DNA from: an uncultured Pseudoxanthomonas sp.
GTDB taxonomy: Bacteria > Pseudomonadota > Gammaproteobacteria > Xanthomonadales > Xanthomonadaceae
Assembly: GCA_946886405.1 (NCBI GenBank)
Contig: CAMPIO010000031.1
Span: 1 to 35,193 of the forward strand
Length of the DNA stretch: 35,193 bases
Direction: 5' to 3'
Shown one piece after another: positions 1,428-31,750 of this stretch. The position numbers were made by a program, and so were the translations under genes. How positions within the stretch are numbered: the stretch's first letter is position 1; each line of letters begins with the position of its first letter. The notes under the pieces were generated by a model. It was given only the letters and a program-made list of their open reading frames with translations. It made no database searches and was not told the origin of the DNA.

Positions 1428-2687
1428 TCAACGCGTGATGCGCAAGCGGCTGATCGTGCCGCGGCCGGGGGCCGACTGGATCGACAGCGTCCAACCGAAG
1501 TGTTCGCACAGGCGTGCGAGCAGGTCGAGGCCGATGCCGCCACCCTCGCGGCTGCCGCCGCGGGCGAGATGCGCATAGATGCGGCTGATTTCTTCCGGCG
1601 TCATGCCATGGCCGGGATCGCGCACGGTCACGGTGGCGTCCGCATCCAGGCTCACATGGATCTCGCCGCTGTCGCTGTTCTCGATGGCGTTGCGCAGCAG
1701 GTTGCCGATGGCCGCCTGCACGATGTGCAGCGGTGCCGGCACGCTGCATGGCTCAAGCCCCTCGATGACGACCGACAGATCCTTGCCGGCCATCAGGTGT
1801 CGGTGATCGTCGATGATGTCGGGCAGCAGCTCGTGCAGCGGCACGATCTCATTGCTGCGGGACAGGCGTGCGGGATCCTTCGCCAGCGCCAGCAACAGGG
1901 CGATCAGCCGCTCGACGTCGCGCGCGGTGCGGTGGATCCGCCGCACTTGCTGGCGCGCGGCCTCGGGCAGGTCGGTGCGCCCCAGGGCGAGCTCGCTGGC
2001 GCCGGCGATGATGGCGATGGGCGTGCGCAGTTCATGGCTGGCGGTATCGATGAAGATGCGCTCGCGTTCGACGAACGCATCCTGGCGACGCAGGTAGTCG
2101 TTCAATGCGTTGGTGATGACGTGCAGTTCGGAGCTGGCATCGTCTGCCACGGCAACACGTTGCCCGGCGTGGTCCGGCGACAACCCGCCGATATCGTCGG
2201 CCAGGTCCGACAAGGGGCGCAGCGTCGCGCGCACGCCGCGGGCGACGAGTACGCCGATGACCACCAGGACGATGGCCGCGAGCGCCAGCGATCCGAGCAG
2301 CAGCGCGTCCTCGATGGTCTCGATCCCCGTGATGTCGCGCACGACGAAGTAGTCAACGCCGCCCTCGCGCTGGACCAGCACGACGTTCTCGCGCCCCCCG
2401 AACCAGAAATCATCGTGCACGCCAGCGGGCAGCATCGACAGGCCGGGCGGAGGGGGACGGCCGGGAATGCGGTAGAGCTGCAGCGTGTCGGTATCCCGCC
2501 AGGCATGGCCCGGATCTTCGGCGTGCTGGCGGACGTAGTGCGCGATCTCGCGCTGGAGCAGCGACCGCCACACCCGGTCTTCAAGGAAGTCGTCCGCGAA
2601 GACCAGCAGAATGACGGCCGCGAGCAGTACGGCGTACCCGCCGAGCAGGCGCCGGATCTGCGCGTGCAGGCTGCGATGGCGTTTCAT
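1428..2687 (-). CDS. Sensor histidine kinase, ColS-like
   Basis: This 419-residue membrane kinase has TM1 at about 14-32, a periplasmic loop of about 95 residues, TM2 at about 129-149 and HAMP at about 150-205. The HisKA box IDTASHELRTP carries the phospho-accepting H218. The HATPase_c domain has an N-box (NLLRNAIENS, 329-338), G1 (DPGHGM, 357-362) and G2 (GGGIGLDLL, 382-390), so it looks catalytically complete. An ETIE sequence (E123, E126) lies just before TM2. ExxE motifs in this place bind metal in kinases of the PmrB/ColS kind. The gene overlaps the upstream response regulator by 4 bp (ATGA), so the two are co-translated. ColS identity is inferred from the regulator, the ExxE and the lipid A gene neighbours; the signal is unknown. 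Confidence 0.9.
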   Translation of the reverse strand: MKRHRSLHAQIRRLLGGYAVLLAAVILLVFADDFLEDRVWRSLLQREIAHYVRQHAEDPGHAWRDTDTLQLYRIPGRPPPPGLSMLPAGVHDDFWFGGRENVVLVQREGGVDYFVVRDITGIETIEDALLLGSLALAAIVLVVIGVLVARGVRATLRPLSDLADDIGGLSPDHAGQRVAVADDASSELHVITNALNDYLRRQDAFVERERIFIDTASHELRTPIAIIAGASELALGRTDLPEAARQQVRRIHRTARDVERLIALLLALAKDPARLSRSNEIVPLHELLPDIIDDHRHLMAGKDLSVVIEGLEPCSVPAPLHIVQAAIGNLLRNAIENSDSGEIHVSLDADATVTVRDPGHGMTPEEISRIYAHLARGGSREGGGIGLDLLARLCEHFGWTLSIQSAPGRGTISRLRITR

Positions 2688-3376
2688 GCGTCGCGCGCCT
2701 CGTGCGGCACCGCCAGCCGGTAGCCGGTGCGCGGCAGCGTGTGGATCAGCTTGATCGGGAACGGACCATCGACGCTGCGTCGCAGCTCGTAGATGTGCGA
2801 GCGGAGCATGTCGCCATCGGGCGGGCTGTCGCCCCAGAGCGCATGTTCGAGTTGTTGCCGGGTGACGGCGGCCGGGCTGGCCTGCATCAGCGTCTCGAGC
2901 AGCTTGCGGCAGGCGGGGTACAGGTGCAGCGGTTGACCGGCGCGGCTCACCTCCAGCGTGGCCAGGTCCAGCTTCAGATCATGCACCTCGAGCACCTTGC
3001 GGCGTTGCCGGCCCTGCACGCGCGCGAGCAGCGCGTCCAGCCGCACTTCCAGTTCCGGAAGATCGAACGGCTTGGTCAGGTAGTCGTCGGCGCCGGCGCG
3101 GAAGCCGGTGATCTTGTCCGGCAGTTCGTCGCGCGCGGTCAGCATGATCACCGGGATGCTGGAATCGTGCTCTTCGCGCAACCGCCGCAGCACTTCCGGA
3201 CCTTCCAGGCGCGGCAGCATCCAGTCCAGCACGATGGCGTCGTAGACCTGCGTGGTCGCTAGGTGCAGCCCGGTGACGCCGTCGGGCGCCGCATCCATGG
3301 CATGTCCGCGCGCCTCGAAGTAGTCGAACAGGTTCGCCACCAGGTTCCGGTTGTCTTCGATCACCAGCAGCCGCAT
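2684..3376 (-). CDS. OmpR-family response regulator, ColR-like
   Basis: The 230-residue regulator has a receiver domain (1-118) with the acidic pair E8/D9, phospho-acceptor D51 in LDWMLP, T80 and K102. The winged-helix DNA-binding domain (about 128-224) ends in IHTLPRTGYRL. The segment from ALWGDSPPDGD through LRSHIYELRR to IKLIHT resembles ColR proteins as I remember them. I chose the ATG giving MRLLVIEDN, because the receiver fold begins there. An in-frame ATG 36 bp upstream (3412) would add 12 residues, and neither has a clear Shine-Dalgarno site. It is divergent from the envelope-modification operon that starts at 3512, with a perfect palindrome between them, so it plausibly controls that operon. 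Direct autoregulation is inference. Confidence 0.9.
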   Translation of the reverse strand: MRLLVIEDNRNLVANLFDYFEARGHAMDAAPDGVTGLHLATTQVYDAIVLDWMLPRLEGPEVLRRLREEHDSSIPVIMLTARDELPDKITGFRAGADDYLTKPFDLPELEVRLDALLARVQGRQRRKVLEVHDLKLDLATLEVSRAGQPLHLYPACRKLLETLMQASPAAVTRQQLEHALWGDSPPDGDMLRSHIYELRRSVDGPFPIKLIHTLPRTGYRLAVPHEARDA

Positions 3377-3434
3377 GGGCAGGGCCCGCACCAGGGGGAG
3401 GACCGGCAGCATCGCAGGCCGGACGTCGAAGCGC

Positions 3435-3450
3435 CGTCGGAATTCCGACG
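3435..3450. promoter_or_regulatory. 16-bp perfect palindrome in the divergent promoter region
   Basis: CGTCGGAATTCCGACG reads the same on both strands. It lies midway between the start of the response regulator and that of the GT83 gene (135-bp gap). A dimeric regulator could bind it, or it could form a small hairpin in the regulator leader. OmpR-type regulators usually bind direct repeats, so the binder may be another protein. Confidence 0.4.
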
Positions 3451-3511
3451 ATTCTCTTACGCCCCATGATCCACGATCCCGCGGCCCCCTGCAGACCTCC
3501 CGGTTCCACCG

Positions 3512-5218
3512 ATGCCATCGACGCACCTGCGACCCGCTCCCCGCTGGCAGATGCCGCTGCTGCTGACGCTGGTGGTGTGGGCCTTGCTGGCAGGCCTGGG
3601 CCTGCGCGAGCCCATGCCGGCCGACGAACCGCGCTTCGTGCTGGCCGCGTGGACCATGGTCGAGAGCGGCCAGTGGCTGTTCCCGCACCGGGGCGTCGAG
3701 CTGTATGCGGAGAAGCCGCCGACCTTCATGTGGTTGCAGGCCGCCAGCTACCTGCTGGTACGCAGCTGGCACGTGGCGTTCCTGTTGCCGTCGTTGCTGG
3801 CCGCGCTGCTGACGTTGTGGCTGACGGGCGACCTGGCGCGTCGCCTGTGGGGGCGTCGCGTCGTGCCGTACGCGGTGTTCGGGTTGTTCGTCTGCCTGCA
3901 GTTCGCGCTGCAGGCCAAGCGCGCGCAGATCGACATGGTGCTGGTAGGCATGACCACGCTGTCGCTGTGGGCGCTGTTGCGCTATCTGCTGGAGAAGCCG
4001 AGCCCGTGGCTGCTGGCGCTGGGCACCTTCGCGGCCGGGCTGGGTACGGTAACCAAGGGCGTGGGCTTCCTGCCGCTGCTGGTGTTCCTGCCCTGGCTGT
4101 GGGTGAGGGTGAAGACGCGGCAGACGCTGCCGCCACATCGCGGCCTGCATGCCTTGGCCGGCGTGGCCGGATTCATCGCGGGCGCAGGCGTCTGGCTGGT
4201 GCCGATGCTGTCGGCCGCGCTGACGTCGACCGATCCCGCATTGCATGCCTACGCGCGCGAGATGCTGTTCAAGCAGACCGGCACGCGCTACGCCAGTGCC
4301 TGGCACCACGTGAAGCCCGCCTGGTATTACCTGCAGACGATGCTGACGTTGTGGCTGCCCGGCGTGCTGTTGGCGCCGTGGCTGTTGCCGGCGTGGTGGC
4401 GGCGGGTGAAACGCATCGATGCGCGCCATGCGCTGCTGCTGGGGTGGGCGCTGCTGGTGCTGGTGTTCTTCAGTGCCAGCCCGGGCAAGCGCGAGGTCTA
4501 CATTTTCCCGATGCTGCCGGCGCTGGCCGTGGCGGCGGCACCGCTGCTGGCCGGCGTGCTGCGGCGACACGGAGTGCGCGTGGTGTTGTGGTGCTACATG
4601 GCGGCGCTGGCGGTGGTCGCGGGTGCGCTGGGGCTGTGGCTGCTGACGGCGTCGCCCGCGCACGTGAACGCGCTGCTCGAGGGCCGCGGCATGGACATGG
4701 ACACGGTCGTGCAGCTGAGTCACTGGCTGATCGGTTTCGCGGCCGTGGCGGTCGTCGTGATGGTCGCCGCGCGACGGCGCGTCACCGTGGCGCTGGTCGC
4801 GGTGACGGCCGCCCTGTGGACGACGTATGGCATGGGCTTCATGCCGGCGATCAGCCCCGACAGTTCGGCGCAGGCGCTGATGCTGCGTGTCGGCGAGCGG
4901 ATCGGTCCACAGGCGGAGCTGGCGATGCTGGGCTGGCGCGAACAGCATCTGCTGCAGGCCGACCGTCCGGTCACGGATTTCGGCTTCAAGCAGCCGTGGG
5001 TGGCGCAATGGCAGCACGCGCATGCGTGGCTGCTGGAAGCGCCGTCGCGACGCTGGCTGTTCCTGCGCAAGGACGCGATGGGGCCCTGCCTCGACACGAC
5101 CAAGGTCGTGGACATCGGTGCATCCAACCGGCGTGCATGGATCCTCGCGCCGGGCGATGCCTGGATCGTGGGCTGCGAGGTGCCGGCGGACTGGTCGGCG
5201 GATGTCAGCGAAGACTGA
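3512..5218 (+). CDS. GT83 (ArnT-like) integral membrane glycosyltransferase
   Basis: The 568-residue protein is very hydrophobic, with about a dozen predicted membrane helices. Near the N-terminus it has the acidic motif PADEPR (D38, E39), then ELYAEKPP (residues 64-70), both hallmarks of the ArnT/PMT-type GT-C fold. Later SPGKREVYIFPMLPALAV matches the conserved cytoplasm/periplasm junction of ArnT relatives. Such enzymes move a sugar from a polyprenyl-phosphate carrier to lipid A or LPS core on the periplasmic side. A C-terminal region of about 130 residues after the last helices is probably periplasmic. It opens a plus-strand operon with PAP2, EptA, GT2 and LAB_N genes. Which sugar it transfers cannot be read: 4-amino-arabinose would need arnA/B genes, which are absent here, and galacturonate or another hexose is possible. 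The ATG has only a weak ribosome site. Confidence 0.88.
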   Translation: MPSTHLRPAPRWQMPLLLTLVVWALLAGLGLREPMPADEPRFVLAAWTMVESGQWLFPHRGVELYAEKPPTFMWLQAASYLLVRSWHVAFLLPSLLAALLTLWLTGDLARRLWGRRVVPYAVFGLFVCLQFALQAKRAQIDMVLVGMTTLSLWALLRYLLEKPSPWLLALGTFAAGLGTVTKGVGFLPLLVFLPWLWVRVKTRQTLPPHRGLHALAGVAGFIAGAGVWLVPMLSAALTSTDPALHAYAREMLFKQTGTRYASAWHHVKPAWYYLQTMLTLWLPGVLLAPWLLPAWWRRVKRIDARHALLLGWALLVLVFFSASPGKREVYIFPMLPALAVAAAPLLAGVLRRHGVRVVLWCYMAALAVVAGALGLWLLTASPAHVNALLEGRGMDMDTVVQLSHWLIGFAAVAVVVMVAARRRVTVALVAVTAALWTTYGMGFMPAISPDSSAQALMLRVGERIGPQAELAMLGWREQHLLQADRPVTDFGFKQPWVAQWQHAHAWLLEAPSRRWLFLRKDAMGPCLDTTKVVDIGASNRRAWILAPGDAWIVGCEVPADWSADVSED

Positions 5219-5347: not shown

Positions 5348-6061
5348 ATGTCGTCAGTCCCCTTCCGTCATCCGTCCCGCGCGCTCCGGCGAACGTCGCG
5401 CCTGCTGCCTTGGTCGTTGCCGCTGCTGCTGCTCGCGTGGTGGGCGGCGCGCCATGTCGACATGGCCCTCGCCCACGGGGTGTTCCACTGGGAAGGCGAT
5501 GCGTGGACGCTCAAGCGCAGCCTGCTGCTTGAGGCCACGCTGCATCGCGGCGGGCGTCTGCTGAGCCAGGCCGCCTGGGCGGGCCTGCTGGTCGCCACGC
5601 TGCTGCACTGGCGCTCACCGGCCTCGCAGGCATGGACGCGTCCGGCGGCGCGCTTGCTGTTGGCAGTGTTCACGTCGGTGGCCTGCGTGGCAGCGCTCAA
5701 GGCGCTTACGCATATGGATTGCCCGTGGGACCTCGCCGGTCTGGGTGGCGACCGTGCGTTCGTCGCGCTGTTCGATGCGCGCCCCCTCACGATGGGGCCC
5801 GCCGCGTGCTTTCCTGCGGCGCATGCGGCAGGCGGCTATGCGTGGGTGGCGCTGTATTTCTTCCTGCTGCAGGTAGCGCCGGGCTGGCGTCACGCGGGAC
5901 TTGCCGTCGGCTTGGCGGCGGGATTGGTATTCGGCGTGGCACAGCAACTGCGCGGCGCGCATTTCCTTTCGCATGACGTTGCCAGCCTGGTCGTGTGCTG
6001 GACCGTCGCGTGCATCGTCGAAACCCTCTCGACGCCGCCCTCGCACGAGGCTCGGGCATGA
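5348..6061 (+). CDS. PAP2-family membrane phosphatase
   Basis: The 237-residue protein has about five or six membrane helices and the PAP2 motifs in order: K118 with the following MDCPWDL (123-129), the FPAAHA block with H159, and QQLRGAHFLSHD (199-210), in which H205 and then H209/D210 follow the arginine. PAP2 enzymes remove phosphate from lipid phosphates such as undecaprenyl pyrophosphate, phosphatidylglycerophosphate or lipid A (LpxE/LpxF type). The variant with CPWD and QLRGAHFLSHD is often seen next to EptA-type transferases, as here, so lipid A or a carrier lipid is the likely substrate. The gene ends in a 4-bp ATGA overlap with the EptA gene, so the two are translationally coupled. 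No strong ribosome site precedes the chosen ATG. The exact substrate is inference. Confidence 0.85.
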   Translation: MSSVPFRHPSRALRRTSRLLPWSLPLLLLAWWAARHVDMALAHGVFHWEGDAWTLKRSLLLEATLHRGGRLLSQAAWAGLLVATLLHWRSPASQAWTRPAARLLLAVFTSVACVAALKALTHMDCPWDLAGLGGDRAFVALFDARPLTMGPAACFPAAHAAGGYAWVALYFFLLQVAPGWRHAGLAVGLAAGLVFGVAQQLRGAHFLSHDVASLVVCWTVACIVETLSTPPSHEARA

Positions 6062-7725
6062 GCGCGTCCATCCTCGACCGCACCGCCGCCGGCTCGCGCT
6101 GGCGGCGCTTCCTCAGCCTGCTGGCCGTCCGTCCGCTGCTGCACACGGAAACGCTGATCCTGTTGGCGTGCCTGTACTTCAGCCTGTTCGCCAATACGGT
6201 GTTCTGGCGCGCCGCAGCACCGCAGCCATGGACGCACGGCACATGGACGCTGTCGCTGTTCCTGCTGGTCACCGCCGTGCATGGTGTGTGGCTGGCGTTG
6301 CTGGTCTGGCGGCGCACCGCGCGCGTCGTCCTGTCGTCGCTGGTGGTGCTGGCAGCCATCGCGGGCCACTACATGGCCAGCTACGGCATCTACATCGATG
6401 CCGACATGGTGCGCAACGTCCTGCATACCGATTGGCGCGAAGCCAGCGACCTGGCCGGTGCCGACGCCCTGCTGCCCCTGCTCGCATCGGTGCCAGCGCT
6501 GCTGGTGGTGTGGCGTGTACGCCTGCGTCACCGCACATGGCCACGCATGCTGCTGGCGCGCGCGGTATTCCTCGCTGGCATGGTGGTGGTCGGCCTGCTT
6601 GGCGTGCTGCCCTCGATCCAGCCGCTTACCGCGTTCCTGCGCAACCAGCGCGAAGTGCGCTACCTGGTCACGCCAGCCAACGTGCTCGTCTCCCTGGCCA
6701 AGATCGTCAGCGAAGAGACGCCCGGCACCACGCGCGTACAGCAGCCGATTGGCGAAGACGCCGTGCAGTCGCCTGCCGCGACCATGCGCCGGCCGCGCCT
6801 GCTGGTGCTGGTAGTCGGCGAAACCGCACGCGCCGCCAACTGGGGCCTCAACGGCTACCCGCGCCAGACCACGCCCGAGCTGGCGAAGCGCGACGTGCTC
6901 AATTTCCCGCACGTCGCGGCCTGCGGCAGCAGCACCGAGGTGTCGCTGCCCTGCATGTTCTCGCCGTATGGACGCGAGCATTACGACGAGAAAGAGATCC
7001 GCGGCCACCAGTCGCTGCTGCACGTACTGCAGCGCGCGGGCGTGGCCACGCTGTGGCGGGACAACCAGTCCGGCTGCAAGGGCGTATGCAGCGGGCTGCC
7101 TTTCGAGGATCTGCATGCGCGCACCGACGCAGGGCTGTGCGACGGCAAGCGTTGCGAAGACGGCATCCTGCTGACGGGGTTGGCCGAGGCCGCACGCCGC
7201 CACGCGGGCGACCAGGTGATCGTGCTGCACATGCTGGGCAACCACGGGCCGAATTACTTCGAACGCTATCCACCCGCGTTCAAGGTCTACCAGCCGGTCT
7301 GCGAGACGTCGGACCTGGGCCGTTGCTCACGCACGCAGATCGTCAATGCGTACGACAACGCCCTGCGCTACACCGATCACGTGCTGGCCTCGGCCATCGA
7401 CGCGCTGGCCGACCTGCGGGACTACGACACCGCCCTGCTGTACGTGTCCGACCACGGCGAGTCGCTCGGCGAGAACGGGCTGTACCTGCACGGCATGCCG
7501 TATTCGATCGCCCCCCGCGAGCAGCTCCAGGTGCCGATGGTGGCCTGGTTCTCCGAGGGCTGGCGCACCGCCACCGGCCTGGGCCCGGCCTGCCTGCGCC
7601 GCCAGGCCACGGGCGCGCGCAGCCACGACGAACTCTTCCACACCGTGCTGGGCCTGACCGACGTGAAGACGTCGCTCTACCGGCCCGACCACGACATTTT
7701 CCTGACCTGCCGGAGCGGACGATGA
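6058..7725 (+). CDS. eptA: Phosphoethanolamine transferase, EptA family
   Basis: The 555-residue protein has four or five N-terminal membrane helices (about 30-185) and a periplasmic sulfatase-fold domain (about 240-550). Motifs are complete: VGETAR with nucleophile T256 and metal ligand E255, GSSTEVSLPCMFS, WRDNQSGCKGVC, MLGNHGPNYFERYPPAFKVYQP, YDNALRYTDHVL, and YVSDHGESLGENGLYLHGMPY with zinc ligands D465/H466 and H478. The cysteine pairs expected for stabilising disulfides are present. EptA moves phosphoethanolamine from phosphatidylethanolamine to the phosphates of lipid A, lowering negative charge and polymyxin binding. The start overlaps the PAP2 stop (ATGA), and the end overlaps the GT2 start the same way. 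An upstream in-frame ATG at 5995 is rejected, as it would bury the start inside PAP2. A chromosomal housekeeping EptA, rather than mobile MCR, fits the context. Confidence 0.93.
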   Translation: MSASILDRTAAGSRWRRFLSLLAVRPLLHTETLILLACLYFSLFANTVFWRAAAPQPWTHGTWTLSLFLLVTAVHGVWLALLVWRRTARVVLSSLVVLAAIAGHYMASYGIYIDADMVRNVLHTDWREASDLAGADALLPLLASVPALLVVWRVRLRHRTWPRMLLARAVFLAGMVVVGLLGVLPSIQPLTAFLRNQREVRYLVTPANVLVSLAKIVSEETPGTTRVQQPIGEDAVQSPAATMRRPRLLVLVVGETARAANWGLNGYPRQTTPELAKRDVLNFPHVAACGSSTEVSLPCMFSPYGREHYDEKEIRGHQSLLHVLQRAGVATLWRDNQSGCKGVCSGLPFEDLHARTDAGLCDGKRCEDGILLTGLAEAARRHAGDQVIVLHMLGNHGPNYFERYPPAFKVYQPVCETSDLGRCSRTQIVNAYDNALRYTDHVLASAIDALADLRDYDTALLYVSDHGESLGENGLYLHGMPYSIAPREQLQVPMVAWFSEGWRTATGLGPACLRRQATGARSHDELFHTVLGLTDVKTSLYRPDHDIFLTCRSGR

Positions 7726-26126: not shown

Positions 26127-27307
26127 AGCCGCCAGCTCAGGTCGTTGAACAGGAACGCCGTGCCGAACTCGACGTCGCTGGAGAAGCCCATCACCTGGAA
26201 GCGCTCCCCCATCTCGCTCGGCAGCGTCAGCCGCTTGGCCTCGTTGCGCAGGCGCAGCAGCGTGGTCTCGTCCGCACGCCCTTCGGCTTCATTCAAGCGT
26301 TCCTGCAACCCGTTGCCGAGCAGGAAGTTCGCCTGCGTGGTGTAACCCGCCAGATCGAAGCCCGCCTGCGTGCCGGCCTCGGCCAGTGCGGTGAAGTCGA
26401 CCGACGCGGTGATGTCCTGCAGTCCTGGCCACAGGTAGGGATCGTTGTGCACGCGATGGCGGTAGTAGGCACGCAACGTGCCATCGTCGCGATCCGGCTG
26501 GTAGAACTCCCGACGCGTATAGCCGTAGTCGACGAACAGCATCACGCCCTTGTCCAGCCCCCCCATCACCGCCTGGATCCAGTACGGCAGCTGTGGCAGC
26601 AACTCGGAGCGATAGCCGTCGGGGAAGGGATGTTCGATGTATCGCTCGACATGCCGTACCGCAGCGGCAAGGAGGGCGTCGGCCGGACGATCGGTACGCA
26701 CGAAACGTCCTGCGTCATCCAGCGCCACGCCCTCTTCGAACACCTCGCCATCGCGCAGCGTGAAGCGCGGTGTCGGCAGGGCATCGATCACTTCATTGGC
26801 GAACAGCACGCCATTCCATGCGTCGGATGGCGGACCATCCAGCCATTCCACCAGGTCGAACACCGGCGGAATAAGACGCTGACCGAGCCGCTCGCGCTGT
26901 CGCTCGCGCAGGTCCGCGCTGGGTTCGAGGATCGCGTAGCGTGCGGGCAGCGCGTCCAGTTCGAGCAGACGCTTGAGCATGATCTCGGCGAACGCGCCAC
27001 TGCCGCCACCGATCTCCACGAACGCCGCCTCAGGGCCCAGTTGCTGCATCACGGGGGCTACCGCCTGCGCCACGCAACTGGCGAACAATGGCCCCAGCTC
27101 CGGCGACGTCGTGAAATCACCGGCCTCACCGAACTTGGTGCTGCCCGCGCTGTAGTAGCCCAGGCCCGGCGCATACAGGCTGCGCTCCATGAAGCGCGAG
27201 AACGGGATGCTGCCGCCCTCGGCCCCGAGCTCGGCACGGATCAGGGCGGCGAGTTGCGCACTGTGGGCCTGCGCAGTGGCGTCGGGAACGGGCAGATCGG
27301 CGTGCAT
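26123..27307 (-). CDS. MidA/NDUFAF7-like SAM-dependent methyltransferase (COG1565)
   Basis: The 394-residue protein matches the COG1565 family: SIPFSRFMERSLYAPGLGYYSAG near the N-terminus, GDFTTSPELGPLFASCVAQ, the SAM-binding FVEIGGGSGAFAEIMLKRL, the LFANEVIDALP block, MLFVDYGYTRREFY and ITASVDFTALAEAG. The mitochondrial relative NDUFAF7 dimethylates an arginine in a complex I subunit. Bacterial roles are not well defined, and whether a complex I protein is the target here is unknown. I chose the ATG at 27307. A GTG at 27331 would add eight residues, but a likely -10 TACAAT (27335-27340) places the transcript start near 27328, after that GTG. It is divergent from the Anbu gene. Confidence 0.88.
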   Translation of the reverse strand: MHADLPVPDATAQAHSAQLAALIRAELGAEGGSIPFSRFMERSLYAPGLGYYSAGSTKFGEAGDFTTSPELGPLFASCVAQAVAPVMQQLGPEAAFVEIGGGSGAFAEIMLKRLLELDALPARYAILEPSADLRERQRERLGQRLIPPVFDLVEWLDGPPSDAWNGVLFANEVIDALPTPRFTLRDGEVFEEGVALDDAGRFVRTDRPADALLAAAVRHVERYIEHPFPDGYRSELLPQLPYWIQAVMGGLDKGVMLFVDYGYTRREFYQPDRDDGTLRAYYRHRVHNDPYLWPGLQDITASVDFTALAEAGTQAGFDLAGYTTQANFLLGNGLQERLNEAEGRADETTLLRLRNEAKRLTLPSEMGERFQVMGFSSDVEFGTAFLFNDLSWRL

Positions 27308-27334
27308 GGCGCACCAGGAGCAAGAGAGCACGTC

Positions 27335-27340
27335 ATTGTA
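27335..27340 (-). promoter_or_regulatory. Candidate -10 element for the MidA-like gene
   Basis: TACAAT on the minus strand, 28 bp before the chosen ATG. A possible -35 TTGCAG is 14 bp upstream, shorter than the usual 16-18. The promoter is therefore tentative, but it favours the shorter gene start. Confidence 0.4.
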
Positions 27341-27392
27341 CGGGTCGTTTCACACTGCAACGCCGGGCCTAGCCAACCCCGGGAGGCGCGCA

Positions 27393-27398
27393 TAGAAT
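27393..27398 (+). promoter_or_regulatory. Candidate -10 element for the Anbu gene
   Basis: TAGAAT ends 28 bp before the Anbu ATG at 27427. No clear -35 lies at the expected distance, so confidence is low. The gap between the two divergent starts is 119 bp. Confidence 0.35.
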
Positions 27399-27426
27399 CG
27401 TGATGCACAGCAGCAACGGACAGGCC

Positions 27427-28257
27427 ATGACCTATTGCGTCGGCATCGAAGTCAACGAAGGCCTGGTCTTCGCCGCGGATACGCGCACCAGCGCTTCCTT
27501 CGACGACGTCCGCGTCTACCGCAAGATGCATGTGTTCGAATGGCCCGGCGACCGCGTGTTCGTCATCATGTCGGCCGGCAACCTGGCCACCACGCAACTG
27601 ACTCTGTCCCGGCTGCAACGCGACATCGACGATCCAGGCGCGACGCGCAGCCTCCGCACGTTCTCGCACCTGTACGAAGTGGCCGAATACGTCGGCGAGA
27701 TGCTGGTGGCCAGCCAGGTGAAGATGAGCGGCGATCTGCAGCAGAGTGGTGTGAACGTGCAGTCCACGCTCATCCTCGGTGGGCAGATCGCCGGTGAGCG
27801 TCCCGGCCTGTACCTGGTGTATCCGCTCGGCAACTGCATCGCGACCTCGCCTGAAACGCCCTACCTGCAGATCGGCGAATCGAAGTACGGCAAGCCCATC
27901 CTCGATCGCATCATCCGCCCGGAAACCCCCCTGGAAGATGCTGCCCGCTGTGCGATGGTCTCGCTGGATTCCACTATCCGCTCCAACCTGTCGGTCGGCA
28001 TGCCGGTGGATATTGCACTGGTGCGCAACGGCGACCTGAAGATCAGCCAGCAGATGCGGCTGGAAGCGGACACGCCCCTGTACGCCGAAATCCACGACAC
28101 CTGGTCACGCAAGCTGGAAGCCGCCGTGCACGGCCTGCCGCGCTTCCCGTGGGAGCCGCAGCGCGAGCCGGAGCCGTCATCCGGTCCGTTGCCGGTAATG
28201 CCGCCACGGCGCGCGCCGTCGCGACAGGATCCCGGCGACGCGCAGGGGCAGCAGTAA
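27427..28257 (+). CDS. anbu: Anbu, proteasome-related bacterial peptidase
   Basis: The 276-residue protein starts MTYCVGIEVNEGLVFAADTR, the Anbu (COG3484) signature. Thr2 is the expected nucleophile after removal of Met1, with D18 and K33 as the other active-site residues. SAGNLATTQLTL, YVGEMLVASQVKMSGDL, STLILGGQI and SLDSTIRSNLSVGMPVDIALV follow, giving a full Ntn-hydrolase beta-subunit fold to about residue 225. The last 40 residues or so form a proline/arginine-rich tail (from about FPWEPQREPEP), which looks disordered. An in-frame ATG at 27400 would bury the threonine, so 27427 is right; GGACAGG precedes it. Anbu forms ring or lock-washer assemblies, and its substrate is not known. It converges on the alpha-E and ATP-grasp genes, its usual partners. 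Confidence 0.94.
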   Translation: MTYCVGIEVNEGLVFAADTRTSASFDDVRVYRKMHVFEWPGDRVFVIMSAGNLATTQLTLSRLQRDIDDPGATRSLRTFSHLYEVAEYVGEMLVASQVKMSGDLQQSGVNVQSTLILGGQIAGERPGLYLVYPLGNCIATSPETPYLQIGESKYGKPILDRIIRPETPLEDAARCAMVSLDSTIRSNLSVGMPVDIALVRNGDLKISQQMRLEADTPLYAEIHDTWSRKLEAAVHGLPRFPWEPQREPEPSSGPLPVMPPRRAPSRQDPGDAQGQQ

Positions 28258-28272
28258 CCGCTCCGCTTTCTT

Positions 28273-28415
28273 GTAGGAGCGACGTGAGTCGCGACCGCGA
28301 ACCCGGACGTTGCTGACGTTACGGTCACGCAAGAGCACGGGACGACAGCCGCTGTGCATGCCTTCAACGTTGATCGACACGTCAGCCGTGCGGTCGCGAC
28401 TCACGTCGCTCCTAC
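28273..28415. repeat. Inverted pair of GTAG-type REPs (pair B)
   Basis: Left arm 28273-28298 begins GTAGGAGCGACGTGAGTCGC. The right arm 28390-28415 is its exact reverse complement, 26 of 26 bases. Ninety-one bases separate them. The pair lies between the convergent Anbu and alpha-E genes, where it could act as a two-way terminator or shield the mRNA ends. The family differs from pairs A and C in its stem sequence but shares the GTAG end. Confidence 0.9.
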
Positions 28416-28428
28416 GGAAGAGCAGGTC

Positions 28429-29370
28429 TCACCCGTGGAAGTAACCTTCCGCGATCGCATCATGCAATGCACTGAGATGCACCTGGATCTGGTCCATGAA
28501 CTGCGCAGGATTGCGCGCAGCCAGCACGGCAGGGTCCGCATTGCGGGTCATGCCCATCACGCGGTTGAGATGGCGATCCACGCCCGGGCGTGGGGGCATG
28601 GTGGGCAGCACGCTCTGCACGCGCGCCAGGCAGAACTGCACGCTGCGCGGGAACTCGTTGTTCTGCAGCAGGAAGCGCAGCGCCAGTTCGGCGGTGACGC
28701 GCTGGCGCACGTGGCGGCGGAACATCTGGTAGCCGGCCAGTGAGCGCAGCACGCTCATCCACTGCATGTTCTGGAAGGCTTCGCGGTCGTCTTCGTTGCG
28801 CGGGGTGACCAGACCGGAGGCGCCGGCATCGATGATGCGCGTGGTCATGTCGGCCTGCTCCAGCGCCGTGCCCAGCCGCAGGAACTGGTAACCGATGTCG
28901 CGACTGACGTTCGCGCTGAGCAGGCCGGAAACCTTCAGGCAGCCGTCGACGATGCGCTGCAGGAAATCGAGCCGGTAGCGGCGGCTCAGGCTGCGCTCAC
29001 CGTGCGCGGCGATGTAGAGATGCAGGTCGTTGATGGCTTCCCATACATCCTGCGGCAGCGTATCGCGGATGCTGCGCAGGATCTCCCGCGCCGCATCCAC
29101 CGTACTCCACAGCGACGACGGATTGCGCTCGTCCAGCAGCAGGAAGCGGATCACGTCCACATCGCCGGCCGCATCACCGGCATCCGGATGGCATTGCTCG
29201 AAGCACTCGCCCGCACCCACGGTTTCGATCATCGGCCGCCACGCGAAGCGCACCGAGCGCGGCATGTCGAGCTGCAACTGGCTGCCCACGCCGACCAGCC
29301 TCGCGGTGTTCTCCGCGCGCCGTACGTAGCGACTGAACCAGTAGAGGTTGTCCGCAACCCGCGACAGCAT
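28429..29370 (-). CDS. Alpha-E domain protein
   Basis: The 313-residue protein matches the alpha-E family (COG2307): MLSRVADNLYWFSRYVRRAENTARLV at the N-terminus and a mostly helical body with repeated helix pairs, e.g. FLRLGTALEQADMTTRIID, where TALEQADMTTR is the conserved second block. No catalytic motif of a known enzyme is evident. Comparative genomics links alpha-E to Anbu, to circularly permuted ATP-grasp enzymes and to transglutaminase-like proteins, where it may be a scaffold or carrier. Its ATG overlaps the ATP-grasp TGA by one base (TGATG), so the two are co-translated. The function is unknown. Confidence 0.93.
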   Translation of the reverse strand: MLSRVADNLYWFSRYVRRAENTARLVGVGSQLQLDMPRSVRFAWRPMIETVGAGECFEQCHPDAGDAAGDVDVIRFLLLDERNPSSLWSTVDAAREILRSIRDTLPQDVWEAINDLHLYIAAHGERSLSRRYRLDFLQRIVDGCLKVSGLLSANVSRDIGYQFLRLGTALEQADMTTRIIDAGASGLVTPRNEDDREAFQNMQWMSVLRSLAGYQMFRRHVRQRVTAELALRFLLQNNEFPRSVQFCLARVQSVLPTMPPRPGVDRHLNRVMGMTRNADPAVLAARNPAQFMDQIQVHLSALHDAIAEGYFHG

Positions 29371-30827
29371 CAGGTGGCCTCCTCGTCATGGTCGGACAGA
29401 TCCACGACCCAGGTGTCCTTGGCGCCGCCGCCCTGCGAGGAATTCACGACCAGCGATCCCTTCACCATCGCCACGCGGGTCAATCCTCCGGTGGTGACAT
29501 AGGTGTCCTGGCGCGACAGCACGAACGGGCGCAGATCAATGTGTCGCGGCGATGGCCCCAGCTTGGTCACGATGGGCGCCGTGGACAGCGCCAGGGTCGG
29601 CTGCGCCATGTAGTTGCGCGGATTCGCCTCGATCAGCGCCTTGAACTTCTCGCGCTGGCGCTTGGTCGAGCGCGGCCCGATCAGCATGCCGTAACCGCCG
29701 GATTCATTGGCCGGCTTGACCACCAGCTTCTCGATGTTCTCCAGCACGTACCTGCGCTCCTTCGCGTTGTGGCACAGGTAGCTCGGCACGTTGGGGAGGA
29801 TGGGGTCCTCGTCCAGGTAGTACTTGATCATCTTCGGCACGTAGGCGAAGACCACCTTGTCGTCGGCTACGCCGGCACCGGGCGCGTTGGCCAGCGCCAC
29901 CTTGCCCGCGCGCCAGCTGCGGATCAGTCCCGGTGCGCCCAGCACGGAGTCCGGGTGGAAGACTTCCGGATCGATGAACAGGTCGTCCACGCGCCGGTAG
30001 ATCACGTCCACCCGCTTCGGCCCGTAGACGGTACGCATGTAGGTGCAGTCATCGTCGGCGACGAACAGGTCATCGCCTTCGACCAGCTCGATGCCCATGG
30101 CCTGCGCGAGGTACGCGTGCTCGAAATAGGCGCTGTTGAACACGCCCGGCGTCAGCAACGCGATCACCGGCGTGTCGCCCGGACGCGGCGACAGCGCGGC
30201 CAAGGTGTCGTAAAGCTGGCTCGGATACTCGTCGACCGGCAGGATGGAACTGGTTTCGAACAGCTCCGGGAACACGCGCTTGGCTACCATGCGGTTCTCC
30301 AGCATGTAGCTGACGCCGCTGGGGATGCGCAGGTTGTCTTCCAGCGCATACAGCGTGCCATCGCCATCGCGCACCAGGTCGGAACCGCAGATGTGCGCCC
30401 ACACGCCCAGCGGCGGCGTGATGCCGACGCACTGTTCGCGGAAGTTCACCGAGTCCTTCAGCAGCATCGCCGGGAACACCTTGTCCTTGATGATCTGCTG
30501 CTTGCCGTAGATGTCACCTATGAACAGGTTCAGCGCGCGCATGCGCTGCTTCAGACCGGCTTCGGTGCGCTGCCATTCGCTGAGCGGGATGATCCGCGGA
30601 ATCAGATCGAACGGCAGCGTGCGGTCGACGTTGCGGCCGTCGGAGTACACGGTGAAGGTGATGCCCTGCACGCGCGCCACCACGTCGGCGGCGAGCTGGC
30701 GCTCGGCGAGTTCGCGACCGGACAGCCCGGCGAGATATTCCACCAACCGGCGCGCTGCCGGTCGCGGCCGTCCATCGGCCTGGATCAGTTCGTCAAAGGT
30801 CGTGGTGCGGTACTTCGCCCAGTCCAT
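29370..30827 (-). CDS. Circularly permuted ATP-grasp protein (DUF404/DUF407 type)
   Basis: The 485-residue protein matches the COG2308 ATP-grasp family. Visible blocks include DWAKYRTTTFDELI at the start, GITFTVYSDGRNVDRTLPFDLIPRIIPLSEW, LEDNLRIPSGVSYMLENRMV, RRVDDLFIDPEVFHPDSVLG, VANAPGAGVADDKVVFAYVP (as ALANAPGAG here), LVVKPANESGGYGMLIGP and LRPFVLSRQ. ATP-grasp enzymes join a carboxylate to an amine through an acyl phosphate. This permuted branch is linked with Anbu and is predicted to make or attach peptide-like tags, but its substrate has not been shown. AGGAAGG before the ATG at 30827 fixes the start; an in-frame upstream ATG to 30884 lacks such a site. It overlaps alpha-E by one base. 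Confidence 0.94.
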   Translation of the reverse strand: MDWAKYRTTTFDELIQADGRPRPAARRLVEYLAGLSGRELAERQLAADVVARVQGITFTVYSDGRNVDRTLPFDLIPRIIPLSEWQRTEAGLKQRMRALNLFIGDIYGKQQIIKDKVFPAMLLKDSVNFREQCVGITPPLGVWAHICGSDLVRDGDGTLYALEDNLRIPSGVSYMLENRMVAKRVFPELFETSSILPVDEYPSQLYDTLAALSPRPGDTPVIALLTPGVFNSAYFEHAYLAQAMGIELVEGDDLFVADDDCTYMRTVYGPKRVDVIYRRVDDLFIDPEVFHPDSVLGAPGLIRSWRAGKVALANAPGAGVADDKVVFAYVPKMIKYYLDEDPILPNVPSYLCHNAKERRYVLENIEKLVVKPANESGGYGMLIGPRSTKRQREKFKALIEANPRNYMAQPTLALSTAPIVTKLGPSPRHIDLRPFVLSRQDTYVTTGGLTRVAMVKGSLVVNSSQGGGAKDTWVVDLSDHDEEAT

Positions 30828-30897
30828 TCGCCTTCCTGGTATCCCTGGCCGGCACATCCGGCAAGAGGTGATGCGTCGCAACATGCCGCGAGAGTGT

Positions 30898-30915
30898 GCA
30901 TGCCGTCAAGCATGC
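30898..30915. promoter_or_regulatory. GCATGC-N6-GCATGC in the ATP-grasp/pteridine reductase divergent gap
   Basis: Two GCATGC palindromes (30898-30903 and 30910-30915) are spaced by CGTCAA, 12 bp centre to centre, in the 182-bp gap between divergent starts. They could be a regulator site. I see no strong promoter hexamers near them. Confidence 0.25.
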
Positions 30916-31009
30916 GTGGGGCCGATCATTCGACTCACAATTCCGGCGCGACCTTGCGCCATTCCGGTGCAAAGCAGGGAGAATGATCGTCCTCGGCCCG
31001 GAGTCCTTT

Positions 31010-31750
31010 ATGTCCACCGCACGTCGCGTCGTCCTGATCACCGGTGCTGCCCGCCGTATCGGTGCGTCCATTGCGCGCCGCCTGCACGCCGACGGTTACG
31101 ACCTGGCCCTGCACTGCCGCGGCTCGATGGCCGACATGCAGGTGCTGACCAGCGATCTGGAAGCGGTACGCCGCCACAGCACGCTGGCGCTGCAGGCGGA
31201 CCTGGCTGCCTTCGACCGGCTGCCCGAACTGGTGGCGAAGACCGTAGGCCACTACGGCCGTCTGGATGCCCTGGTCAACAACGCCTCCGCGTTCTATCCC
31301 ACGCCGGCCGGTACGGCGACACCGGCGCAATGGGAGGAGCTGTTCGCGGTGAACGCCCGTGCACCGTTCTTCCTGGCGCAGGCCGCCGCCCCGCATCTGC
31401 GGGCCTCCCGGGGGGCGATCGTCAACATCGCCGACATCTATGCGGACAGGCCGCGCGCGGACCTTGCGGTGTACGCCGCCTCGAAGGCTGCCCTGCTGGC
31501 GGTCTCGCGGGGGCTAGCCGTCTCGCTGGCACCGGACGTACGCGTGAACGCCGTGTCGCCAGGCGCCATCCTGTGGCCCGACGCCGGCATCGATGCGGAC
31601 GTGCAGGCGAGCCTGCTGGCGCAAACGCCACTGGCGCGTGCCGGCGAGCCGGACAACATCGCCGGCACCGTGGCGTGGCTGCTCGGCGATGCGGCGGGCT
31701 ATGTCACCGGCCAGGTGATCCGCGTGGACGGCGGACGCGGCATCCGCTGA
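31010..31750 (+). CDS. Pteridine reductase (SDR family, PTR1/FolM-like)
   Basis: The 246-residue short-chain dehydrogenase begins MSTARRVVLITGAARRIGAS, with the TGAARRIG nucleotide-binding motif (11-18) in the RR form typical of pteridine reductases, and NNASAFYPTP. The catalytic set is D142 (ADIY), Y155 and K159. An aspartate replaces the usual SDR serine, with 13 residues to Tyr and 4 to Lys, the same spacing as Asp181-Tyr194-Lys198 of Leishmania PTR1. VNAVSPGAILWP and GYVTGQVIRVDGG follow. It would reduce dihydrobiopterin or dihydromonapterin/folate with NADPH. GGAG six bases before the ATG supports the start. It converges on folK and folB, which supports a pterin/folate role. Confidence 0.9.
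   Translation: MSTARRVVLITGAARRIGASIARRLHADGYDLALHCRGSMADMQVLTSDLEAVRRHSTLALQADLAAFDRLPELVAKTVGHYGRLDALVNNASAFYPTPAGTATPAQWEELFAVNARAPFFLAQAAAPHLRASRGAIVNIADIYADRPRADLAVYAASKAALLAVSRGLAVSLAPDVRVNAVSPGAILWPDAGIDADVQASLLAQTPLARAGEPDNIAGTVAWLLGDAAGYVTGQVIRVDGGRGIR

Follow-up and report, generated by a model that had tools for sequence, protein, structure and literature searches.

The C-terminal tail of a proteasome-like Anbu peptidase found in Pseudoxanthomonas is, among relatives, mostly retained and lost together with a cognate ATP-grasp/Alpha-E pair

The DNA analysed here, a 35,193-nucleotide stretch from an uncultured Pseudoxanthomonas sp. (contig CAMPIO010000031.1; the whole stretch is referred to below as the window), encodes the peptidase Anbu, a proteasome-like N-terminal nucleophile (Ntn) hydrolase, and beside it an Alpha-E protein and a circularly permuted ATP-grasp enzyme, the last two being termed the pair. 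Anbu ends in a disordered C-terminal tail (residues 244–276; positions 28156..28254, plus strand), which consists of a neutrally evolving linker and a conserved motif, PPRRAPSRQDPGDAQGQQ-COOH (28201..28254, plus strand). It is apparent from the results presented below that, in relatives of the window, this tail survives almost exclusively where the pair is also kept and is repeatedly lost with it. Such co-survival suggests that the pair acts on, or docks to, Anbu itself. In the explanation favoured here, with a probability of approximately 0.6, the tail would serve the cognate ATP-grasp/Alpha-E pair as a recognition element; the pair would bind it in trans and would most likely act there. An earlier, sequence-only reading of this DNA described the three genes as an obscure tagging-like system and made no mention of the tail, the most informative feature of the locus. 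The tie between tail and pair provides a first concrete handle on the function of the unexplained Anbu system.

Relatives were sampled in a first draw of 149 genomes of the window's family (inferred from genome G001), drawn evenly, and in a larger draw of 395 genomes that were searched for Anbu and Alpha-E; all genome-wide statements refer to these and other relatives' genomes, which, like their loci, are numbered (G and L, respectively). Anbus at least 63 % identical to that of the window were considered to be of the window's type, and only intact, complete genes were counted. In the larger draw, a tail ending in QQ was present in all 61 window-type Anbus from genomes containing Alpha-E. The QQ end was found in none of the 33 from genomes lacking it, and the motif was likewise present in none of the 33. 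According to our own matching of loci, 42 of the 61 tail-bearing genes and 24 of the 33 tail-less ones lay outside the set that gave rise to the idea. Linkage does not explain the association, since the pair was situated at least 30 kb from Anbu, or on another contig, in 21 of the 61 tail-bearing cases. Gene order at three loss sites is also informative (folK, folB, mscS and tsaD, as well as Hex, are working labels for what we presume the corresponding window genes to be). The pair alone is absent between mscS and Anbu in G137 and G173 (L116 and L182), and mscS and the pair are both absent between folB and Anbu in G273 (L181). As the missing pair belongs 5′ of Anbu in all three, the same deletion did not take the 3′ tail. 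Searches of 11 loci with tblastn (E 0.01) revealed no pseudogene relics of the pair at loss sites.

Several genomes required separate treatment. G293, in which Anbu is broken and lies in a stretch with several split genes, and G301, in which a contig end cuts the gene, were left out of the tail counts. The Anbu of G031 is split over two contigs and was set aside; its C-terminal piece carries the tail. G129, which lacks the common flanking genes and is therefore absent from the trees described below, has neither Alpha-E nor the tail. ATP-grasp, Alpha-E and Anbu are all gone between mscS and folK in G240 (L207, 6145–6270), where a 42-residue relic of Anbu is left; this genome was drawn in the 55-genome tree, was uncounted for pair and tail, and was omitted from the 61-genome tree. 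Two Anbus from Alpha-E-less genomes (G146 and G322) have a chance QQ directly behind the helix, with neither a terminal QQ nor the motif.

As read in the window-type Anbus of pair-bearing genomes, the tail follows the sequence LPRFPWE and ends in PPRRxxxRxDP[GE]DxxxQQ. It is 30–37 residues long in the 62 tail-bearing sequences (window included), and both motif Asp residues and the terminal QQ are invariant in all 62, with G231 showing the single departure elsewhere in the motif. The terminal Gln residues number two in 52 sequences and three in 10, and the tail ends in GQQ, AQQ or SQQ. QQ also terminates 118 of the best 120 of 7999 database homologues, taken without genome context, and 23 of the 29 sister-family-type homologues that were read. 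Residues 256–276 were disordered in the structure model of Anbu, with a predicted local distance difference test score (pLDDT) below 50.

Ratios of non-synonymous to synonymous substitution (dN/dS) were determined for 505 close pairs of tail-bearing genes. The Anbu body gave a ratio of 0.166 and the linker one of 1.03, as compared with 0.175 over the last 20 codons, which represent the motif. The linker evolves neutrally, and constraint on the motif is as strong as that on the body. Many synonymous differences have accumulated in the motif (proportion of synonymous differences, pS, 0.42). Its DNA is thus free to change, and it is the peptide, not the DNA, that is under constraint. For the tail-less genes (G129 excluded), 130 close pairs gave a body dN/dS of 0.113, and the catalytic residues T1, D17 and K33 were intact in all 62 tail-bearing Anbus and in all 33 tail-less Anbus from genomes without the pair. 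Judged from its sequence, Anbu therefore remains an active-looking hydrolase in the absence of pair or tail. Residue E213 was considered as a second contact on the body, being the sole body column that is invariant in the 62 sequences yet changed in all five loss lineages of the family. It was not relied on, because one sister-family sequence read by eye at that column (P0124) has Asp there.

A lineage effect, as an alternative source of the association, was examined with independent pairs on trees. Both trees exclude near-duplicates, which were removed manually, sparsely aligned rows, which were filtered out, and 30 short loci (L151–L180). In the 55-genome tree, constructed from five flanking genes, five losses of the pair are forced, and the tail was lost in the same five (p=0.0625). 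In the combined 61-genome tree, which takes in eight of the 12 sister-family Anbus of the window's type, supported branches force six losses of the cognate pair, and the tail is gone in all six (p=0.031). The six of six independent pairs hold under both a strict and a lenient definition of the tail. Tail changes on the combined tree number eight (strict) or seven (lenient), as compared with six for the pair; the changes occurring without pair loss are those of G489 and, under the strict count, also G403/G497. Support was poor in a quick tree made from the Anbu body only, which gave just one pair on starred branches.

The sister family, represented by 217 genomes, yielded Anbu matches in 30 and Alpha-E in 30, and 12 complete Anbus were of the window's type (at least 65 % identity to that of L012). 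Ten of the 12 are accompanied by the pair. Six of these pairs were compared by sequence, their ATP-grasps being 77–83 % identical to the window's, and the other four were regarded as cognate on the grounds that no more than 0.1 kb separates Alpha-E from Anbu. Seven of the 10 Anbus end in QQ, two are Q-rich with another end (G403 and G497) and one is tail-less (G489). The remaining two genomes, G457 and G538, have no cognate pair. They possess a distant pair (Alpha-E 29–30 % and ATP-grasp 49–50 % identical to the window's) and a transglutaminase, and their Anbus are tail-less. Since the tail is missing despite the distant pair, it is to the matching pair that it is tied.

A failure of Anbu and the pair to co-occur across related genomes had been named in the sequence-only reading as what would refute it. 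In the first draw, Alpha-E was found in 38 of 149 genomes and ATP-grasp, above the cut-off, in exactly the same 38; Anbu was found in 44, with 35 of the 44 Anbu genomes carrying the pair and 35 of the 38 pair genomes carrying Anbu. The larger draw contained Anbu in 140 of 395 genomes, Alpha-E in 112 and both in 106. The expected association stood in 35 of 44 genomes and failed in the 34 of 140 Anbu genomes that lack Alpha-E, so that the refuting condition applies in part: Anbu co-occurs with the pair, though not exclusively. In 33 of these 34, Anbu keeps T1, D17 and K33 (the remaining one is the 42-aa relic), so that the removal of a pair-made tag cannot be its only role. That the system makes or removes peptide tags, as had been proposed, is not shown by these results; what the evidence suggests instead is that the pair has Anbu itself as its partner or target.

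The absence of a transglutaminase gene from the window, as noted earlier, was confirmed among its open reading frames (ORFs) with one transglutaminase query. Genome-wide, the Bact_transglu_N domain was found in 11 of the 149 first-draw genomes and in 0 of the 15 relatives having both the pair and a window-type Anbu; the generic Transglut_core domain, present in 146 of 149, is uninformative here. Other loci combine the same families differently. Many of loci L034–L059 (from Halomonas, Nitrincola and others) have ATP-grasp/Alpha-E, transglutaminases and a fused second copy within approximately 8 kb, and Anbu is absent from the fetched stretch in many of them, so that the modules mix freely. G054 has a cognate ATP-grasp/Alpha-E (L146, 6004–8432), with no Anbu found in the genome, and approximately 12 kb away (L145) a second ATP-grasp/Alpha-E forms one long frame, with transglutaminases. 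In the transglutaminase-type operons of L128 (G074, 5927–7344) and L141 (G012, 6496–7452), ATP-grasp is split over two frames, possibly through a frameshift or an assembly error.

At least 581 relatives of the ATP-grasp were confirmed, and the best 80 loci were compared. The nearest named genome among these was that of Pseudoxanthomonas sp. 3HH-4, whose ATP-grasp is 98 % identical. Within the 80 loci, Anbu was seen convergent, on the same strand, upstream or missing nearby. Trios with a convergent Anbu are found repeatedly in Pseudoxanthomonas, Rhodanobacteraceae and Nevskia/Solimonas-type loci; the location of Anbu on the opposite strand, which had been pointed out earlier, is thus not unusual. 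One clade (L101–L103) has the order tsaD-folB-(mscS)-ATP-grasp-Alpha-E-Anbu-folK-PTR-methyltransferase, allowing for minor differences; PTR stands for pteridine reductase. Within the Xanthomonas-like clade, seven first-draw loci (L104, L106, L108–L111 and L113) have Anbu with folK-PTR-methyltransferase and the pair elsewhere; the pair region, fetched for four of these seven genomes, lies beside tsaD-folB (L105, L107, L112 and L114). Anbu is still with folK-PTR-methyltransferase in most other Alpha-E-less genomes, G129 (L123) not being among them.

The three proteins of the window were assigned from profile and PDB matches. Anbu (27427..28257, plus strand; 276 aa) matches the Pfam Proteasome family (PF00227, E 2.3e-07), and all five of its five PDB matches are named Anbu or peptidase, the best being 5loy, a designed Anbu (E 6.3e-78). 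It begins with MTYC at 27427, so that removal of the initiator Met would make Thr2 residue 1, and the proteasome-type catalytic residues T1, D17 and K32/33 (K33 in the catalytic triad T1/D17/K33) are present. The protein thereby combines the features of the Anbu class, namely a proteasome-like Ntn fold, an N-terminal Thr, Asp17, Lys32/33 and a long C-terminal helix (217–236, predicted). Alpha-E (28429..29370, minus strand; 313 aa) gives a full-length match to PF04168 (E 3.9e-84) and is almost all-helical in prediction (model pLDDT 94.4). The ATP-grasp (29370..30827, minus strand) has 485 aa when read from the ATG at 30827, upstream of which the ORF stays open up to 30884. It matches PF14403 over its full length (E 6.7e-159), aligns with the solved relative 3n6x over query residues 7–475 (E 2.3e-159), and contains SGGYG and RRVDD. 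Its TGA stop codon and the ATG of Alpha-E have one base in common, 29370. The families of the Anbu neighbourhood, the intact Thr2 active site, the GGYG and DVDD-like blocks and the one-base overlap had all been correctly recognized in the sequence-only reading.

The results can be accommodated in a model of an Anbu module without transglutaminase. Anbu would assemble through its C-terminal helix, as described for Pseudomonas aeruginosa Anbu in passages of PMC5666114. Behind this helix, each subunit would bear the flexible linker and the C-terminal peptide PPRRxxxRxDP[GE]DxxxQQ, which the cognate pair would bind in trans. The pair might then dock on the Anbu particle, for regulation or product hand-off, or might ligate the tail, at its terminal carboxylate, to an amine or amino acid, a covalent change being the least certain element of the model. 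Several observations weigh against recognition of the tail by the pair. One clear exception is G489 (L267, 4766–7971), in which a cognate pair adjoins a tail-less Anbu, and the tails of G403 and G497 are Q-rich but not QQ-terminated. No tail is present in 20 of 20 more distant family Anbus read beside a pair (L125–L144), and Anbu chains deposited in the PDB have lengths of 240–251 aa, so the pair does not, in general, need a tail. G054, furthermore, retains a cognate pair without Anbu. Six events are the minimum with which the sign test passes 0.05, and the window's family alone gives five of five (p=0.0625). A single pathway shared by tail and pair, and lost as a whole, could also produce the correlation in the absence of direct contact. 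Finally, Yersinia Anbu formed no detectable complex with its operon partners, as reported in passages of PMC6376114; since no solved Anbu chain is long enough to include such a tail, the negative Yersinia results for complexes and peptidase activity do not bear on it.

How the pair would use the tail may be envisaged in more than one way. One possibility, less likely than not, is that Anbu is the substrate: the ATP-grasp would activate the carboxylate of the terminal Gln (or another carboxylate) and join it to an amine, amino acid or peptide, with Alpha-E as adaptor. The invariance of the terminal QQ in 62 of 62 sequences, the contrast between constrained motif and free linker, and the alignment of the ATP-grasp with 3n6x are in keeping with such a reaction, as is the release of phosphate from ATP by a Yersinia ATP-grasp homologue (passages of PMC6376114). 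Modification of the Anbu tail is so far hypothetical, however, and the variable number of terminal Gln residues, the other terminal residues in G403 and G497 and the possession of a pair without Anbu by G054 all argue against it. Were it to occur, ligation of the -QQ tail might conceivably switch the activity or location of the Anbu particle, in which case the system would tag the protease and not its prey. Another possibility, about as probable, is that the tail simply acts as a short linear motif by which the pair is held at the outside of the Anbu particle, its product being made beside the hydrolase with nothing attached. A neutral linker with a constrained end motif, as observed here, is the usual signature of a docking peptide, and the tail is disordered in prediction. 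C-termini in this family, moreover, generally face away from the rings, and extensions there are possible interaction sites (passages of PMC8665760). Such a putative contact is subject to the same counterpoints as recognition of the tail in general.

Two further explanations dispense with an action on Anbu. Tail and pair might serve one pathway without contact and decay independently once it is dropped, the Anbu body keeping another job; the intact catalytic residues of the 33 pair-less Anbus, the dN/dS of their bodies and the lost tail but retained pair of G489 accord with this. It is nevertheless rather unlikely, given that six of six losses coincide and that a non-matching pair does not retain the tail (G457 and G538). 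Least probable is the tagging-like system in which other proteins receive peptide tags from the pair and are trimmed or degraded by Anbu, as proposed from gene neighbourhoods by Iyer 2009 (as cited in passages of PMC6376114 and PMC5666114). It is at odds with the 34 of 140 Anbu genomes without Alpha-E, 33 of them with catalytic residues checked and intact, and with the lack of the transglutaminase in 15 of 15 relatives, and it offers no reason for Anbu's own tail to follow the pair. Recognition of the tail by its cognate pair is thus preferred. With the tail come a defined peptide of 18 residues, specific partners and naturally occurring loss mutants, so that binding or modification of the protease by the ligase pair becomes open to direct study.

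Other features of the window were also noted. Anbu and Alpha-E are convergent, with 171 bp from stop codon to stop codon, and between their ends is a perfect 26-nt inverted repeat (28273..28415, no strand assigned; arms 28273–28298 and 28390–28415, 91-nt spacer). It resembles a doublet of repetitive extragenic palindromes and is possibly a two-way terminator; no T-run terminator was found within 27300–31100. A single strict −24/−12 pattern gave no sigma-54 site upstream of ATP-grasp or Anbu in the window. In Burkholderia cenocepacia, a DUF404/407-DUF403-transglutaminase cluster is under NtrC/sigma-54 control, according to passages of PMC5491218. Elsewhere in the window, the response-regulator and DNA-binding domains of a 779-aa ORF (2684–5023, minus strand) are confined to its last third, and its true start probably lies internally.

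The system may be compared, finally, with others that are better known. The four-gene operon of Yersinia bercovieri (ATP-grasp, Alpha-E, transglutaminase-like and Anbu; passages of PMC6376114) contains the same Anbu, Alpha-E and ATP-grasp families. Its transglutaminase-like gene has no counterpart in the window (one query) or, as Bact_transglu_N, in any of the 15 relatives with pair and window-type Anbu; Anbu is convergent, on the same strand or unlinked here, and its C-terminus is extended by a conserved tail that the solved Anbu chains are not long enough to contain. Passages of PMC6376114 report neither a complex nor peptidase activity for Yersinia Anbu, and those of PMC6376114 and PMC5666114 describe Anbu, Alpha-E and their ATP-grasp as having no known substrate, with negative pull-downs and peptidase assays. 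A term search of passages from PMC5666114, PMC6376114 and PMC8665760 revealed no mention of such a tail on Anbu; the C-terminal helix is discussed in these sources, as are, in PMC8665760, C-terminal domains of other family members. As far as these parts of the literature on Anbu, Alpha-E and the ATP-grasp extend, the tail appears to be new.

A disordered, Gln-ending peptide beside a member of an ATP-dependent amidoligase family and a proteasome relative is reminiscent of Pup/PafA. In that system, a separate small tag protein ending in GGQ or GGE is used by PafA, a glutamine-synthetase-like ligase. The tail described here is, by contrast, fused to the protease and ends in GQQ, AQQ or SQQ instead of GGQ, the neighbouring ligase is an ATP-grasp, and there is no AAA+ ATPase among the three proteins. 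A separate tag and a PafA-type ligase are therefore lacking at the locus, to which this comparison was confined. Tubulin tyrosine ligase and RimK, on the other hand, are ATP-grasp enzymes that act on flexible C-terminal tails. By analogy with these, the ATP-grasp of the window, which differs in being circularly permuted and in presumably working with Alpha-E, might ligate the tail of Anbu.

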